From Caldithrix abyssi DSM 13497 (GTDB taxonomy: Bacteria; Calditrichota; Calditrichia; Calditrichales; Calditrichaceae): 64,000 nucleotides of DNA. The stretch lies in the NCBI RefSeq assembly GCF_001886815.1, contig NZ_CP018099.1:3098501-3162500 (forward strand). Reading direction: 5' to 3'. The position numbers and the translations under genes were made by a program. The notes under the pieces were generated by a model. The model was not told the origin of the DNA and searched no databases. It saw only the letters and a program-made list of their open reading frames with translations. How positions within the stretch are numbered: the first letter of the stretch is position 1; every line of letters starts with the position of its first letter. Below are positions 26,258-40,277 of the stretch, one piece after another.

Positions 26258-26933
26258 GGAACTCTAAGTTTCTTAAATCTATTTACATTCTACGAAACTT
26301 CTACGCTTCCGTTCCGCAGAATTGTCAAACATTTAAAATTATTAAATTAAGGGTAGAATGTCAAAGGAAAGAATGAAAACTCTGAATGTCCCCCAAATTT
26401 TTTAAGATTACAATATTTTTTCTAAAATCATTTTTACAACTCACCCCCTAATCATATAATTACTAACACGTTAGGCATGCTCTTATCCCCCTCTCTTTGC
26501 AAAAAGAGAGGGGGAATAAGGGGGTGAGTTTTTCATACATTCAGCTATTGTATTCCCTTAAATATCAATCGATTATAAGGTCTTTGTTTGAAATTTTGGG
26601 GGACATTCAGAAAGAATGAAAACTCGGAAAAGCAGTGGCAAAGTACGCCAGGAAAATATAACCACATTTGAGTATTGTGTAATGCGTTACACGTAACAAG
26701 TAACGCGTGAGGCGTAATGAGTTAGCTCCGTAAGTGGAAGCGTTTATCACCGCCGATCAGTATCAAAGTGCAGGCACACAGTGCAAGCACACAGTGCAAG
26801 CGTTCTTTATTTAACGATGAAAGGCATTTTCATCGCTGCGTCATGACAGGCCACTCTTATACTCTTACCCCCTCGCCGGGCCTGCCTCTAAAGGACAAAT
26901 TACGCTTTTTATCGAGAATCCATCTGGTTAATT
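26258..26933. other. Intergenic, 676 bp, with a small mobile element and tandem motifs
   Basis: It contains the 229-bp inverted-repeat element at 26382-26610, a self-complementary stretch around 26680-26715 (GCGTTACACGTAACAAGTAACGC), and two copies of CACACAGTGCAAG near 26775-26800. No open frame here looks like a gene. It separates tamB from the Fe-S oxidoreductase. Confidence 0.6.
26382..26610. mobile_element. Intact MITE-like element, CTGAATGTCCCCCAA ends, 14-bp target duplication
   Basis: The 229-bp element has no coding frame. The ends are inverted repeats of at least 16 bases (CTGAATGTCCCCCAAA). It is flanked on both sides by the same 14 bases AAAGAATGAAAACT (26368-26381 and 26611-26624). 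The duplication extends to 16 if the terminal C and G are counted as target. The centre is a hairpin of CCCCCTCTCTTT/AAAGAGAGGGGG set within CTCACCCCC/GGGGGTGAG arms. Both halves recur in the broken copy at 33620-38032. It presumably moves with a transposase supplied in trans. Confidence 0.85.
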
Positions 26934-32961: not shown

Positions 32962-33836
32962 AATTTCCCTCGTTTCAATTTAATCTCTTTGCACTAATTA
33001 ACGTTTTACTTAATTTAAGTTTATAATGTTTCGGCAAAATTTTCTTTTATTTAATGTAATTTAATAAATTAAAACGTTTTTCTACAAATAATTATTCTGG
33101 AAGAAAAGAATTGCCCTGTTTAAAGTCCAAAAATGTAAAGAAAAAAAACATCTTTGCCCCTTTTAAAACTGCTTAAAACATCAGCCTTACTCATGCGCCC
33201 TACTGAAATGCGCTGCGTTCTGTTTTGGAAAGGGGCAAAAAACCATTAATAATATTTTTTCTCCCGCATTCCTAATTTAGCAGGGGATCTAATGAGTTTT
33301 AAATTTAACTCCATTACCTCCTTTTTTACAGATTTTAGAGTTCTACAAAATGTAAATTTTAGTGTCATTTCGAGGAGCGGAGCGACGAGAAATCTTTTGT
33401 TTTTGTTGAAGTTAGAAGATTTCTCATCCCGATAAATCGGGATTCGAAATGACATGTATGTGCATTTTGCAGAACTCTAACAGATGTATGAGCGCCGAAC
33501 AAACGTTTTTTAAGCTTTTGCTTATATTTCACGATTACTTGAAAATTAAATACTTAAAGCCGCTCATTTTTACAAAAACGTCATGATACAAAGCAGCGCC
33601 CTGTTCAACAAATAACTTTCTGAATGTCCCCCAAAATTTCAAACAAAGACCTTATAATCGATTGATATTTAAGAGAATACATTAGCTGAATGTATGAAAA
33701 ACTCACCCCCTTAATCCCCGGGGCTCTCCCAAAAGTCAAAGACAATGTATTTTTATAAATTTTTTCTTTCCCTCACCCCCTTTAATTCCCCCTCTCCCGA
33801 AAATCGCTGACCTTTACCCACACATAGCACCGTGGG
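32962..33836. other. Intergenic, 875 bp, repeats only
   Basis: It holds a 146-bp repeat copy (33335-33480), the left half of a broken MITE-like element (33620-33719) and the left end of the DruA-type insertion sequence (from 33792). The first 370 bases, upstream of rny, are AT-rich without recognisable sites. Confidence 0.6.
33335..33480. repeat. 146-bp inverted-repeat element, copy 1
   Basis: The ends are TTAGAGTTCTACAAAATG and its complement CATTTTGCAGAACTCTAA. An inner pair TGTCATTTCGA/TCGAAATGACA makes the whole a near palindrome. It is the reverse complement of the copy at 52995-53140 with only about two base differences. No clean target duplication is seen here, only CAGAT on both sides with one base of offset. 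Confidence 0.85.
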
Positions 33837-36162
33837 TTATGGGCCGTCTCGGCTTGAAGTAAAAATAATATACATCTCGGTTGCCGTATCCAATCGCTGT
33901 ATTCCTCGCCAGAGCGTTACTGTGCCAGGCTCGCCATCACTCTTTCTGCCTAAATGGCCTCCGATCTGACCTACCATACGGATGGCTTCTCGTAAACTCA
34001 TCGGCTCCTCCGGCGCTATGGGCGTCTTATGCACATAGCAATACAACGCTTTCCATTCCTCTTCTTTGAAAAATACGCTCGCCGGCGAATCCGGTATTTC
34101 ACGACCTAACATGGTCATATGATAAATGCGCCAGGCTACAACCATATCCACGGCTAAGGCCGTCTCTAAACGATCCGCACTGCCTAATTGACGATCTTTT
34201 ATGCGGCAGCCGCTCTTGAGCGTTCGATGATATATCTCGATACCCCAACGACGAGTGTACCACTGCACTCGTTGATAGGCATCAGTAAAATTCTCTACCG
34301 ACACCGTGGTCAATAACATCCACTCTATTGGACTCTTAATATCAGCTGGCGGATCGACCTCTCGGATATAAACAGCCCACACCTTAATGGGCTTAGAGGA
34401 CGAAAATCGTTTCGGCGGTTCTAAGTCTATCGACGAATAACGCAAGGACATCTTGGCCTCACGAGCCCTGATATTGCCCCTACGAGGAACATGAATTTGA
34501 AATTGACCGCGCTCTTCTTGACTGGACATGTAATCCCACAGATCAATTCCGGCCACTTTGCGATTGCGGCGCTTGCCCACGCGTACCAAAAGTCCTGCCT
34601 TGCTATCTTTCCTTTGAGCCTCATGAAATAATTCGTAGATATCCGCCTCTCGATCGCCCACGCTTACGATAAGCGTCTCCGGACATAACTTAGCGATCTC
34701 GTTGACCCGGCGATAACTACGTAACCATTTCATACTCTCTTTTTGCTCAATGGGTAATTCCTTCCGACGACGCGTCTTGCCTCGATCCTTCGGATCACGA
34801 GCCCATACCTGGGCATCCAATACGCCTAACGGCGTGCCATCCTCACTAAAGGCCAATGTATCATGTAAAATCAAGCCAATGCTCTGGTGATCTATATGGC
34901 TTGTCGGCCCCAAGTCTTTGGTCATGGGATGCGTGCTGTAGTCTAAAATGGTCGTGTCCTGAGGCGCTAAAACCACCTTGTGTTCTTTTATGCGATCTAT
35001 CGTCGCCTCGGTATGTGCATCTAAAATAATATCCATGGTTACCTTCTCGTTTTGAAAAAATCGATAGGCGCCCATCGTGCGCGCCTTACCACCACAGGCC
35101 TCCGGAATGTTGGCCTGCGGCTTGTTGTAAAAGTCATCCGCTATGGCGTACAAACGCTGTTTGAGACGATTGTCATATAAGCGAATGCTGCCAAATTCCC
35201 GCTCCGCCCAATTCGATGAGTCTTTGATTAATCGTCCTTGGCCTAAACCGTCCGCACTCTCCTGACACAAAATCTTTCGCCAGTTCCTTTGCAATGGATA
35301 AAGAAATACCTTTTTGGCGATACCGTCACGACGACCGCTGGTATTTCCTACATAAAGCCAGTTGGAAGCCAGGTAACCGATGCCTTTGAAAACACTAGAA
35401 TCCACATAACTTTCCACCAAAACCGGGCGATAACCATAACGACTCTCCCAATCGGTTCCAATACGCTGCAAGGCTTTACTCAACAGAAATGAAGCCAGAT
35501 TCTTGACCTTAACCGTAGGTACGATCAAAAAACGATCATTACTGATCACATACTGGATATTCTCCCTTCGCGCCTTTTCGCTCCAGCCAATATAGGCATC
35601 CCTGGCTCGTAATTTATAAGTCGCTGAACTAAAGCCTAAAGCGCCAATATAGCCATACTTCTCGCTTTTTACAATATAGCGAATCTGAGCGCCACAAAGT
35701 TTTGCGCTTTTAAGGTAATGGAAATTCTCTATTAACTGAAACCATGCGCGCGAATCCTTGCTGTAGCGGCTTTTGATCGGCTCGATTACAATTTCGCCTA
35801 AAACCGATAAATGGCCTTCAATGGAGGCGATTGGAACATCAAGCTTACGCTTTTTCTTTTTTTCAAAAGCATAGCTTTTTTTTCGTTCTGGTAATTTGAT
35901 TAAACCGCGCCGATCCAGCTCTAATAAGGCTTTACGGCAGCTCATCTCCTGGAATTTCCCATTGGGAGATTTCCAGTCCATCAGTTCGCATACCTCTCGT
36001 GATAATTTCCTACGAGATATCTGCGGCTGCCGGGCAATGATCGCATTAATACGTTTTAATATTGGTTCGCTAAAAATTTTCCCATATATTTGCATGTAGA
36101 AAATTTAACAAATTATTCCCCCTGTGTCAAGTGTGTGCCAGGTCCAGCGAAAATCGGGAGAG
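33792..36162 (-). mobile_element. Insertion sequence with DruA-domain DDE transposase
   Basis: Imperfect inverted ends: CTCTCCCGAAAATCGCTG-ACCT on the left and, as complement, CTCTCCCGATTTTCGCTGGACCT on the right. They give an element of about 2371 bp holding one transposase gene. Flanking bases (left TTAATTCCCC, right CTTACTATAT) show no target duplication, perhaps because a neighbouring IS110 insertion or a deletion changed one side. Confidence 0.75.
33837..36095 (-). CDS. Transposase: DUF4338 (DruA) domain fused to Tn5/IS4-type DDE domain
   Basis: The 752-residue protein has two parts. Residues about 1-270 match DUF4338, the DruA domain named from Druantia defence systems (IENFHYLKSAKLCGAQIRYIV, GALGFSSATYKLRARDAYIGWS, ESRYGYRPVLVESYVD). 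Residues about 285-752 form an IS4/Tn5-type transposase. It starts with the DNA-binding segment NWAEREFGSIRLYDNRL, and the DDE triad lies in APQDTTILDY, VGDREADIYELF and RRWGIEIYHRTLKSG. No stop or frameshift is present, so the enzyme could be active. The DruA part probably helps recognise ends or target; this is inference. Confidence 0.9.
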   Translation of the reverse strand: MQIYGKIFSEPILKRINAIIARQPQISRRKLSREVCELMDWKSPNGKFQEMSCRKALLELDRRGLIKLPERKKSYAFEKKKKRKLDVPIASIEGHLSVLGEIVIEPIKSRYSKDSRAWFQLIENFHYLKSAKLCGAQIRYIVKSEKYGYIGALGFSSATYKLRARDAYIGWSEKARRENIQYVISNDRFLIVPTVKVKNLASFLLSKALQRIGTDWESRYGYRPVLVESYVDSSVFKGIGYLASNWLYVGNTSGRRDGIAKKVFLYPLQRNWRKILCQESADGLGQGRLIKDSSNWAEREFGSIRLYDNRLKQRLYAIADDFYNKPQANIPEACGGKARTMGAYRFFQNEKVTMDIILDAHTEATIDRIKEHKVVLAPQDTTILDYSTHPMTKDLGPTSHIDHQSIGLILHDTLAFSEDGTPLGVLDAQVWARDPKDRGKTRRRKELPIEQKESMKWLRSYRRVNEIAKLCPETLIVSVGDREADIYELFHEAQRKDSKAGLLVRVGKRRNRKVAGIDLWDYMSSQEERGQFQIHVPRRGNIRAREAKMSLRYSSIDLEPPKRFSSSKPIKVWAVYIREVDPPADIKSPIEWMLLTTVSVENFTDAYQRVQWYTRRWGIEIYHRTLKSGCRIKDRQLGSADRLETALAVDMVVAWRIYHMTMLGREIPDSPASVFFKEEEWKALYCYVHKTPIAPEEPMSLREAIRMVGQIGGHLGRKSDGEPGTVTLWRGIQRLDTATEMYIIFTSSRDGP

Positions 36163-36256
36163 CTTACTATATTATAGTTGTCAACAAAAGGATGAAAGAA
36201 AAGACTATACTCCTTAAATTGTAAGCTGATTTAAAAAAAAAGAAAGGAGCATAGTC

Positions 36257-37498
36257 ATGGGGAAAATAAACAAAAAAGAGAGAAAATTCAACGAAGAAAC
36301 CTTATTAGTTACAGTGGATATAGGCAAAAAATTTAATTACGGTTATGCACGTACAAAAGATGGTCAGGAGTTAGAAGTGTTTAAGTTTTTTAACACAGGT
36401 AAAGGATTCGAATATTTTTTAAAAAAAGTAGAAAGCTTCAGAGCAAAGACCGGTCTTAAGAATTGTTTATTTGGCCTGGAATCCACTGGCAGCTATGGGC
36501 TTGCGCTCATTCATTATCTACATCGAAGGGGCTATGAGATTGTACAAATAAATCCGATGCATACCAAGCGCCTGAAAGAATTAACGGACAATAGTCCCAA
36601 TAAGACAGATAAAAAAGACCCAAAGGTCATAGCAGATATAATAGAATTAAACAAATATTTAACAGTAATCATCCCAGAGGGAATTTTTGCGGAATTACGC
36701 GAATTGGTTCATTTAAGAGAGAAAATACTTGAAGATCTACGAAGGAGTTATAATCGAATTGAGGGACAGTTATTTAAGATATTTCCGGAATTCTCTCAGG
36801 TCATGAGAGATTTAACTACAAAGACTTCACGTTATCTTTTGGCTCATTATACTTTACCTCAATTCATATTGGATTTAGGCTTAACAAAGCTAACAGAGCT
36901 AATAAAGTCAGTAAGTAAAAACCGATTAGGTGAAGAAAAGGCCCTTGCTTTATATGAAGCTGCTAAGATGAGCGGAGGCATCAAAGAAGGAACCCGGTCC
37001 ATTGTAATGGAGATCAAGATACATCTTGATCAGATAGATCGTTTAGAATCTTATCAAAAGTCACTAAAGGATGAGATAGAGAATTATTTAAAAGAAGTGC
37101 CATACAGCAGGAACATATTATCCATAAAAGGGATAGGACCCATAATCGCAGCCATTTTAATAGGAGAGTTAGGAGATATCCGCAGATATAAAAGTTATCG
37201 TGAGTTAGAGAAGATAGCGGGATTAAACCTGTATGAAGTCAGTTCTGGCCAACATAAAGGTAAACATCACATAAGCAAACGCGGTCGGAGTTTATTAAGA
37301 AAAGCTCTTTTTTATATAGCCATCAATGCAAGTAGAGGTATCTTACAAGAAGTTTATCAGGTACATAAGGAGAAAGGGATGGCCAGCGCCAAGGCTTTAA
37401 CGGCGTTATCCAGAAAGATATTAGCCATTATTTTTGCATTAGTAAGAGATGATAGTTTCTACATAGAAGGCTATAAAAAATCAAATAAAGCAGCCTAA
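36257..37498 (+). CDS. IS110-family transposase (DEDD recombinase)
   Basis: The 413-residue transposase has an N-terminal RuvC-like DEDD domain: VDIGK near residue 20, FGLESTGSYG near 70, and DKKDPKVIAD near 115. A coiled helical middle and a C-terminal Tnp20 domain follow (SIKGIGPIIAAILIGELGDI, AGLNLYEVSSGQHKGKHHISKRGR) with the serine of the SSG segment. IS110 elements use a bridge RNA from their non-coding end. Here a long imperfect hairpin follows the stop codon at 37515-37608. A good ribosome site (AAAGGAG) precedes the ATG. The frame is intact; the element ends are not defined by inverted repeats in this family. Confidence 0.92.
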   Translation: MGKINKKERKFNEETLLVTVDIGKKFNYGYARTKDGQELEVFKFFNTGKGFEYFLKKVESFRAKTGLKNCLFGLESTGSYGLALIHYLHRRGYEIVQINPMHTKRLKELTDNSPNKTDKKDPKVIADIIELNKYLTVIIPEGIFAELRELVHLREKILEDLRRSYNRIEGQLFKIFPEFSQVMRDLTTKTSRYLLAHYTLPQFILDLGLTKLTELIKSVSKNRLGEEKALALYEAAKMSGGIKEGTRSIVMEIKIHLDQIDRLESYQKSLKDEIENYLKEVPYSRNILSIKGIGPIIAAILIGELGDIRRYKSYRELEKIAGLNLYEVSSGQHKGKHHISKRGRSLLRKALFYIAINASRGILQEVYQVHKEKGMASAKALTALSRKILAIIFALVRDDSFYIEGYKKSNKAA

Positions 37499-37514
37499 AA
37501 GCAACAATTTGAGA

Positions 37515-37608
37515 TATGGCGGGAAGACCTTCGGCCCCCCCATAAAGGCATACAGATAGTATGACCTTCGGTAAGAGAGCAAAAAAAGGCTTCCCGTCAT
37601 ATTTACCT
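37515..37608 (+). ncRNA. Possible IS110 bridge RNA structure
   Basis: Immediately after the transposase, ATATGGCGGGAAGACCTT pairs imperfectly with AAGGCTTCCCGTCATAT about 60 bases later. The loop contains a second GACCTTCGG copy. The position (3' side of the gene) is where IS1111-type members carry their guide RNA. It could equally be a simple terminator-like hairpin; no structure prediction was run. Confidence 0.35.
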
Positions 37609-37703
37609 TAGTTCCGATTAAGTAAGATAAGAGCTGTTAAAATACAGACTCTCGAATATCAGGGTAGAACAAGGTAAAATATCTCAAAAAATAGGCGAAA
37701 AAG

Positions 37704-37812
37704 TTATCCACAATAATTAACATATTAAAAAGAAAGGAGTTAGGTGTGTAAAAAATGAGTTATCCACATATCCACACCCTCTACAGTTATTAACATATTG
37801 TTAATAACTTTA
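37704..37812. other. DnaA-box pair beside an AT-rich palindrome
   Basis: Two perfect TTATCCACA sequences occur at 37704-37712 and 37760-37768, with a near match (ATATCCACA) overlapping the second. An AT-rich tract with the palindrome GTTATTAAC-ATATT-GTTAATAAC follows at about 37785-37807. This is origin-like, but no dnaA, dnaN or rep gene is near. It lies inside the mobile composite. Confidence 0.4.
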
Positions 37813-38051
37813 TTATTAAAATATTTGACTATAATAAATCAGGGGGGAAGGGGGTGAGGGCTAATGCAATGTTTTTCATGATATTAAATAAATATACATT
37901 TAATTTCTCTTTTGAGACACCCCCGGGGACAAGAGCATACCTAACGTGGTAGCAATTATGAGATTAGGGGGTGAGTTGTAAAAATGATCTTAGAAAAAAT
38001 ATTGTAAACTTAAAAAGTTGGGGGACATTCAGTTCAACAAATAACTTTTCC

Positions 38052-38080
38052 TTGACATACGAAATGATTTTTGTTATTAT
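38052..38080 (+). promoter_or_regulatory. Sigma-70-type promoter of the nickel operon
   Basis: A perfect TTGACA (38052-38057) stands 17 bases from TATTAT (38075-38080). It is 3 bases right of the target duplication of the mobile composite and 128 bases upstream of the TonB receptor start. Confidence 0.8.
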
Positions 38081-38207: not shown

Positions 38208-40277
38208 ATGCAAGCTAAAAAATCATTTTTAATAACCTTATTATCTTTTTTTACATTTAATTATTTATTCGGAGCAACCATTACCGGACGTGTGCTTTCG
38301 CCTGACGGGCATCCTGTTGCTTATGCCAATGTGTTCATTGAAGGCTCCAAATTTGGCTCAACAACCAATGAGAAAGGCGAGTTCAGGATAATCAACGTCC
38401 CGGAAGGCAGGGCAACTCTCAAGGCTACCCACATCTCTTTTGGGACTGTTGAATTGGAGGTCGATATTCCCTGTGATTATATTACGATCAAATTTAAACA
38501 GGAACATGTCATTTCTTTATCCGATGCGGTGGTAGTTACCGCCACGCGCACTCCCAAAACGCTAAAAGAAACGCCTTTGCCGGTTACTCTCATTCCACGG
38601 GAAAGCATTGAGGAGATTCAGGCGGTCAGTCTTTCCGACGCCATCAAACAGGTGCCCGGTATTGTTTTAGTTCCGAACGGATTTACGCGGAACAGCGCCA
38701 CCATTCACGGACTTCCGGAAGAGTACACCCTACTGCTGGTTGATGGTCAAAGAGTGTATGGCAGGCACGCCGACGCTAAAGATTTTGACAACATCCCGGC
38801 CGGAATGATTGAGCGCATTGAAATTGTGAAGGGGCCATCCTCTGTATTGTTTGGCAGCGACGCGGTTGCCGGCATTGTTAACGTGATTACCAAATCCGGG
38901 CAGAGCGTTCCCTTTTTTGAACTTTACGGATTTGGCGGGAGCAATAGTCGCTACACCACGCGCATCATGGCTGGCGGCCAGATCGGCGAAATCCGCAATT
39001 TCCTTTCGGCAAGCTACAATAAATCCGGACAGATGGCCGAAGGTTACGCCTTTTCAAATATCAATTTGCGCTACAATGGATGGTTTAATCCCACGGAAAA
39101 ATCCAGGTTACACTTTGGAGGCGGTGTTTTTAGCGAAGAAACCGAAGACATGCCCCCTGCCGAAGGACATGAAGAAGGTGGTCCCTACCTTACCGACGAT
39201 GTGTACGATTTCAATGTCGGCTACCATTATGAGACGGAATCGAAAACCACATATGATCTTTCCGCCTATGTTTATAATCAGGATCGCTGGGATAATCGTC
39301 CGGGCAGAGATGACCGCAGGTGGGATAGAAATCATATCCGCTTAGAAGGATTGAGCGGATTCCGCCGTGGCAACCATGAACTGTTAATCGGTCTGGAGGG
39401 CAGAAACGAAACACTCACTCATACTCAAATACCCGAAACCAAAAATCAACTTCTCCTCTCTTTGTTCGGTCAGGATACCTGGACATTGAACAACCGGCTT
39501 TCGCTGGTCACTGCGGTGCGCTTTGAGCATCATGATCGATGGGGGCTGGTTTTTGTGCCAAGGCTTGGGTTAGCCTGGAAGGCTAATGATCAATTGAATA
39601 TTCGGCTGTCAGGCGGCAGCTCTTTCCGCGCGCCTTCGCTGGAAGATCTGTTTGTTGAAACCTATTTTCATCCCTGGGGCGGCGGCTTCTGGTTAGGCGG
39701 CAATAATGAACTGAAGCCTGAAAAAGGCATTGGCGCTAACCTCGACTTTGAGTGGATTCCAAACGTCAAAACGGTGCTGACCATCGGCGCGTTTTATAAT
39801 CGCTTAAAAGATCGAATTGCTTCTGTGGACACCGATCAAACAATTCAGGATTCGCCCGTCCGCCAACTGGTTAATGTGCAAGAAGCCACCAGCTACGGCG
39901 TCGATGTTCAATTAAACCGCATTTTATGGCCAGGCGCCCGATTGATGACAACATACGGCTACACCTATTCGGAAGACGGAGCAACCGGAAAACCGTTCTA
40001 TCTGACTCCTTACCACAAGGGCGGTTTCATTTTCAACTGGAATCATCGAAAGTGGAAAACCAATTTGAATTTGAGCGCCAACTATCTGGGAGAACGTTCC
40101 ACTTCCAGAGAAACTTTGCAAGGCGTGGTTATCCTGGATGCCAACATTGAAAAACAGATAGTTGGCGGGATCAGTCTTTTCATTGCAGGGAACAACCTGC
40201 TGGATAAAGACCTTTTTCCCAGCCGCTACATCAATTATGGTCGTTATTACCGTTTAGGCTTTCGATTTAGAAGATAA
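38208..40277 (+). CDS. TonB-dependent outer-membrane receptor, probable nickel uptake
   Basis: This protein of about 689 residues has a signal peptide (KKSFLITLLSFFTFNYLFGA). A carboxypeptidase-like beta-sandwich domain follows (about 23-105, ITGRVLSPDGHPVAYANVFIEGS). Then come the plug (about 115-220, LSDAIKQVPGIVLVPNG, IERIEIVKGPSSVLFGSDAVAGIVNVITK) and a 22-strand barrel ending in Phe-Arg-Arg. I place the start at ATG 38208 after AAGGAG. A longer in-frame open stretch reaches back into the mobile element and past the promoter and is not coding. It is the first gene of the Nik operon under a NikR-like operator, so the substrate is probably a nickel chelate. Confidence 0.9.
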   Translation: MQAKKSFLITLLSFFTFNYLFGATITGRVLSPDGHPVAYANVFIEGSKFGSTTNEKGEFRIINVPEGRATLKATHISFGTVELEVDIPCDYITIKFKQEHVISLSDAVVVTATRTPKTLKETPLPVTLIPRESIEEIQAVSLSDAIKQVPGIVLVPNGFTRNSATIHGLPEEYTLLLVDGQRVYGRHADAKDFDNIPAGMIERIEIVKGPSSVLFGSDAVAGIVNVITKSGQSVPFFELYGFGGSNSRYTTRIMAGGQIGEIRNFLSASYNKSGQMAEGYAFSNINLRYNGWFNPTEKSRLHFGGGVFSEETEDMPPAEGHEEGGPYLTDDVYDFNVGYHYETESKTTYDLSAYVYNQDRWDNRPGRDDRRWDRNHIRLEGLSGFRRGNHELLIGLEGRNETLTHTQIPETKNQLLLSLFGQDTWTLNNRLSLVTAVRFEHHDRWGLVFVPRLGLAWKANDQLNIRLSGGSSFRAPSLEDLFVETYFHPWGGGFWLGGNNELKPEKGIGANLDFEWIPNVKTVLTIGAFYNRLKDRIASVDTDQTIQDSPVRQLVNVQEATSYGVDVQLNRILWPGARLMTTYGYTYSEDGATGKPFYLTPYHKGGFIFNWNHRKWKTNLNLSANYLGERSTSRETLQGVVILDANIEKQIVGGISLFIAGNNLLDKDLFPSRYINYGRYYRLGFRFRR

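Follow-up and report, generated by a model that had tools for sequence, protein, structure and literature searches.

Insertions of a MITE family found twice in the window (the whole 64,000-nt stretch of DNA analysed here) target predicted promoters at one fixed position, as shown statistically with promoters called from sequence alone. In 19 of 20 copies across the genome, one flank reads, in order, target-site duplication, 3 nt, -35 box, 17 nt and usually -10 box. We consider it quite probable that the MITE is a non-autonomous derivative of IS4-like insertion sequences (ISs) that target sigma70-type promoters, probably via promoter-bound RNA polymerase/sigma.

The MITE and its interrupted sister copy

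The intact MITE (26382-26610, plus strand) is 229 bp long including the terminal C and G, and has the ends CTGAATGTCCCCCAA and TTGGGGGACATTCAG. Its terminal inverted repeats are 21 nt long with 95% complementarity, its centre is a nested hairpin with 13 bp of perfect pairing, and its fold has a z-score of -9.3. A 14-bp target-site duplication, AAAGAATGAAAACT, flanks the element, with the promoter-proximal copy at 26368-26381 and the distal copy at 26611-26624. The left end points towards the target promoter, which lies on the minus strand (26336-26364) and consists of a -35 box TTGACA (26364-26359), a 17-nt spacer and a -10 box TAATTT (26341-26336); it is separated from the duplication by 3 nt (26367-26365) and faces an ORF at 26257-22103 on the minus strand. 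In keeping with a MITE, the element is short, bounded by inverted repeats and duplications, present in 20 scorable copies and devoid of a transposase gene, and its ends are near-identical to those of ISs in other genomes (G005 and G414).

A second copy of the same MITE lies in reverse orientation at 33620-38032 (minus strand), interrupted by a second-family MITE, a DruA-Tn5-like IS and an IS110 element. Its 16-bp target-site duplication, TTCAACAAATAACTTT, has the distal copy at 33604-33619 and the promoter-proximal copy at 38033-38048. Three nucleotides after the latter begins a plus-strand promoter at 38052-38080 (TTGACA at 38052-38057, 17 nt, TATTAT at 38075-38080), which precedes a gene starting near 38209 on the plus strand.

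The first-pass annotation, made from the letters of the window, had described the 229-bp sequence as a MITE-like element and the sequence at 33620-38032 as a broken member of the same family. The inverted repeats, the hairpin, the duplication and the genome copies bear out the first claim, and the same MITE, reversed and interrupted, bears out the second. It had put the duplication at 14 (up to 16) bases, of which the 14 stand and the extension to 16 is a chance match of the terminal C and G. Taken as a whole, that interpretation is partly supported; the promoter target rule had not been seen.

Nearly all insertions across the genome lie 3 nt upstream of predicted -35 boxes

With at most one mismatch allowed, the 4.98-Mb genome has 44 occurrences of the 14-nt end motif, as against one of the reversed control, and BLAST of the genome with the element returned 37 matches. 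MITE copies are mostly 225-240 bp long and alignable over their whole length; genome-wide, 20 copies with both ends could be scored, and decayed copies exist besides. Duplications in the 20 copies measured 12 bp (1 copy), 13 bp (2), 14 bp (11), 15 bp (4), 16 bp (1) and 17 bp (1), some of them imperfect, as expected of old copies. The unusual length remarked on in the first pass is therefore a property of the family and not a coincidence of two sites. It had been suggested there that other copies with no duplication, or with duplications of other lengths, would make the two coincidental; the length does vary, from 12 to 17 bp, yet it is long in all 20 copies. What stays constant is the position of the promoter-proximal cut, which lies 3 bp upstream of a -35 box; the other edge of the duplication lies further upstream, by 9-17 bp when relatives in other genomes are included.

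We oriented the flanks with the left end of the element inside and scored them by the number of matches to the 12 promoter consensus bases. At the duplication edge + 3, the mean promoter score of the 20 copies was 7.5/12, compared with 3.73 +/- 0.35 for shuffles (z = 10.7), and 0 of 20,000 shuffles exceeded 5.05. Scores at every other offset were 2.6-4.6, and the opposite flank, which contains the two reversed insertions, scored 4.4 at the same offset. Columns +3, +4 and +5 were T, T and G in 17, 18 and 16 of 18 sites, respectively, and TA occupied +26/+27 in 15 and 16 of the 18. Orientation was fixed in 17 of 19 copies; in the remaining two (L032 and L039) the promoter lies on the other side with the same spacing. 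One copy (L035) was the only one of the 20 without a promoter. As a control, a second MITE family of the same genome gave no promoter-score peak at any offset. Six decayed copies (L040, L054-L057 and L059) also fit the rule by eye, with 17-20 nt between the element end and the -35 box.

At one locus (L050; G000:C1:4410377-4410680), an older MITE remnant lies directly beside a newer copy, and both end at the same promoter, which seems to have been hit twice.

The -10 box and the choice of site

At the -10 position, 16 of 19 target sites had TA...T, whereas among the noncoding TTG[AC] sites of the window the share was 2.9% (p ~ 2e-22); three copies of this genome (L033, L038 and L049) have poor -10 boxes at N17. 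Variation of the spacer to the -10 box between 16 and 18 nt left the cut fixed relative to the -35 box, which argues that the reaction is anchored on the -35 side.

This anchoring could also arise if the transposase itself reads a -35-like sequence (TTGAC, 3 bp from the cut) and selection removes insertions elsewhere, an explanation that we regard as possible but rather unlikely. It would account for a cut fixed to the -35 and not the -10 box, for TTG being the most conserved part of the sites, and for one distant relative (L134) that has TTGACA at +3 inside a coding sequence without a -10 box. However, it would not predict the excess of TA...T 17 nt downstream in the targets over the noncoding TTG[AC] sites of the window, and several targets are weak at -35 (TTTTAT, TTGCAT, TTGCCC) with a proper -10 box, as expected if the holoenzyme chooses. 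Since the -10 box is near-universal, the site appears to be picked by a complex that needs both boxes, which points to the holoenzyme over a reading of TTGAC alone.

We therefore favour, at somewhat better than even odds, guidance of a bacterial transposase group by promoter-bound RNA polymerase holoenzyme (sigma at -35), such that the host transcription machinery selects the site. The transposase would dock on promoter-bound RNA polymerase, perhaps most likely on sigma region 4 at the -35 box, and the docked enzyme would cut the DNA just upstream of that box. An insertion of this kind, outside genes and with the promoter boxes intact, should be tolerated even before essential genes.

Relatives in other genomes

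A scan of the ends across about 85,000 species led to KSB1 bacterium 4484_87, whose MITE differs in its interior but shares the ends and obeys the promoter rule, and to a Calditrichota MAG (G019) in which the contig breaks off, shortly after the terminal repeat, within the C-terminal part of a protein. This protein fragment led in turn to a full-length IS in G005, with the ends CTGAATAACCCCC/GGGTCATTCAG. The transposase of that IS has one in-frame stop, and the flank consists, in order, of a 17-bp duplication, TTC and TTGATA-N17-TACATT. Homologues occur in other lineages at 30-59% amino-acid identity. The full-length relatives number about a dozen; most of the genomes are draft assemblies, and some elements lack one flank.

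In the full-length relatives, the element end on the C-terminal side of the transposase faces the promoter. Promoter-facing relatives include L210 (HU gene), L212 (gapA), L216 (ptsH), L217, L131, L132, L133 (rpsB), L135, L136, L137 (tRNA-Pro) and L138, with protein genes assigned by eye and the tRNA-Pro confirmed by ARAGORN. An L210-type relative encodes a 417-aa transposase between the ends CAGGATGTCCCCC/GGGGGACATCCAG, the 10-bp duplication of L212 is present on both sides, and L213 has reversed orientation. A -35/-10 pair was found at the expected place in 23 of 29 scored insertions outside this genome, a tally less strict than the own-genome statistics because the side was chosen by eye. 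The N-terminal-side flanks of the same relatives, where scored, had no -35/-10 pair. There was no clear promoter at L130, L211, L172 and L149, and L169 lacks a -10 box. Duplication length differs by subgroup over 9-17 bp (17 in G005, 10 in L212, 9 in L135), so that here too the fixed quantity is the promoter-proximal cut. More distantly, Thermus relatives (24% identity) have duplications of 6-7 bp and no promoter rule. These comparisons show that the predicted rule follows the transposase and the ends of the element, whatever the host or the interior.

Random insertion, with survival only directly upstream of promoters because an insertion there does no harm or brings a benefit (such as insulation of the promoter or a supply of upstream DNA), is a very unlikely explanation of the rule. 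Gene-dense genomes do purge most insertions, and the sites are mostly intergenic with the boxes intact. However, survival alone would permit a range of distances and both orientations, whereas we observed a single offset (+3) and a 17:2 bias; moreover, the second MITE family in this genome does not sit at promoters, and the rule holds in distant hosts whose elements have different interiors.

Five hits of the terminal-repeat scan (L139, L140, L142, L143 and L145) look like chance matches, and a sixth (L144) had no promoter. Searches of plasmid, phage and viral sequences gave distant relatives or none. In L135 (G293, 1050-2760), a tRNA T-arm-like sequence (GGTTCAAATCC) lies on both sides of a distant relative, and an IS-end repeat beside the element suggests that insertion at this one site was tandem or repeated; next comes a TTGCCC-N17-TAGAAT promoter.

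Genes downstream of the target promoters and empty sites

By eye, the genes downstream of the target promoters include tRNA-Leu, tRNA-Gly, SRP RNA followed by a dnaX-like start, rpoZ, carA, a MerR-type regulator and others, and it is because of these genes that the targets look like working promoters. Most insertion sites fall between genes, and the promoter boxes are left intact. Sister species of the genus lack the element at the promoters of tRNA-Leu, tRNA-Gly, SRP RNA and rpoZ, yet have these promoters, with their -35/-10 boxes, at the matching position; at L195 the alignment crosses the insertion zone without a break. A promoter carried as part of the mobile unit, or copies arising by duplication of a larger segment, could in principle also yield a -35/-10 pair at fixed distance, but this is extremely improbable, given flanks and promoters that differ in sequence at every copy, duplications that differ between copies and lie on both sides of the element, and empty sites with promoters in sister species.

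The partner-type transposase

The partner-type transposase is a DDE protein of about 420 aa, encoded by a single ORF in elements of about 1.43-1.44 kb, and matches Pfam DDE_Tnp_1. Relatives carry the Y(2)R(3)E(6)K signature (YGLRWKIEEVHRQIK in G005, YGHRWKIEEVHRQIK in L210) together with DLSD and DRG..DR motifs. Matches to the NCBIfam IS4 and IS701 models were weak and distant, all below the curated cut-offs: the best IS4 model score was 58.5 bits against a cut-off of 160 (IS4_3), and the best IS701 score was 63.2 against 250. The link between MITE and transposase is drawn from shared ends and a shared, predicted target rule.

A partner transposase had been reported in the first pass as absent from the window, and this holds: the transposases in the broken copy are later passengers. 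The partner, then called unknown, can now be named by type, an IS4-like DDE transposase with nearly the same ends, found only in other genomes. The window's own genome contains no homologue of the partner-type transposase at E <= 1e-5, so the MITE may now be stranded or served by a divergent enzyme. We propose that a DDE/YREK transposase, supplied in trans, would have mobilised it by IS4-like cut-and-paste and is now lost or undetected in this genome.

Casposons, which use a Cas1 integrase and make 14-15 bp duplications, were considered as partners on account of the long duplications here and rejected, since the protein encoded by autonomous relatives with these ends is of the DDE_Tnp_1 type. 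We also rejected an IS1202-type partner (the ends begin CTG/CAG, not 5'-TGT, and the transposase matches DDE_Tnp_1 and IS4/IS701 and is not TnsB-like), as well as the DruA-Tn5, 600-aa DDE and IS110 transposases found within the long copies, which belong to insertions into the MITE with ends of their own.

A conserved QLxLxF-like peptide lies at the very end of the transposase C-termini (L125, L210, L212, L132 and L136), in the forms QLGLLF, QLELAF, QMTIRF or QMKIRL-like. These peptides resemble, at the level of sequence, the beta sliding clamp binding motif Q-L-x-L-F known from other transposases (PMC4549789).

Comparison with known systems

Known target cues of bacterial transposons are specific DNA sites, DNA structure, replication clamps, RNA guides and recombinase sites. 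To our knowledge, no bacterial transposon targets promoters at a fixed position; a search of the open-access literature found none that targets promoters, and an earlier report may exist elsewhere. The yeast Ty1 and Ty3 retrotransposons integrate position-specifically at RNA polymerase III promoters via the transcription machinery, a safe site in a compact genome. The parallel is conceptual: they are eukaryotic retroelements with an integrase, whereas here a bacterial DDE IS is paired with sigma70-type promoters.

The closest working parallel, with a fixed distance and orientation relative to a host-protein site, is the ISAjo2 group within the IS1202 family. Its insertions lie 5 bp from XerC sites at dif/pdif in fixed orientation, and contact between transposase and bound XerC has been proposed (Harmer, Pong and Hall 2023, PMC10132070). 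The group described here differs in targeting a promoter and not a dif site, in its IS4-like and not TnsB-like transposase, in ends that begin CTG/CAG and not 5'-TGT, and in duplications of 9-17 bp as against 5 bp.

The IS4 family is defined by its Y(2)R(3)E(6)K signature (De Palmenaer et al. 2008, PMC2266710). Our elements resemble it in their single-ORF DDE transposase with YREK, in ends starting CT/CA and in the length of the relatives. Unlike that family, for which part of the same review gives duplications of 8-13 bp, about one helix turn, they have duplications of 12-17 bp in this genome and 9-17 bp in the group, model scores far below curated cut-offs and a promoter at fixed position as target; the word 'promoter' is absent from the main text of the review.

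If true, guidance by the promoter-bound holoenzyme would be a bacterial counterpart of Ty3 targeting. The insertions would naturally map out the active promoters of uncultured phyla, would explain tolerated IS insertions in front of essential genes, and could be a route for repeated rewiring of upstream regulatory regions with the promoter boxes unbroken. The transposase would be a candidate enzyme for guide-free insertion at promoters, and whether it binds sigma factor or RNA polymerase is a testable question.

Passenger elements and the shared central module

The insertions in the interrupted copy, at 33720-37928, are nested, the MITE containing the second-family MITE and this in turn the DruA-Tn5 IS and IS110 (gene 36257-37498). 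The DruA-Tn5-type IS (2341 bp; 33807-36147 in the window, 380-2740 in L035) encodes one 752-aa protein that combines a DruA (Druantia) domain with a Tn5-type transposase. It sits in a central hairpin loop twice, in another copy of this MITE (L035), with a 10-bp duplication, and in the second-family MITE of the window, with a 9-bp duplication.

The centre of the intact MITE is a nested palindrome at 26438-26530, AACTCACCCCCT..CCCCCTCTCTTT(GCAA)AAAGAGAGGGGG..AGGGGGTGAGTT, common to unrelated MITE families; no Rfam family matched the region. The module, CTCACCCCCT..CCCCCTCTC..GAGAGGGGG..AGGGGGTGAG (also L062-L072 and L174-L193), forms part of the interior of MITEs whose ends are unrelated, in this genome (the second family, with the ends GGGGCTGTCCCAAAAGTC / GGGTGTCTCAAAAG) as well as in related ones, and its 10-mer CTCACCCCCT occurs 196 times in this genome, compared with 4 times for the reversed control.
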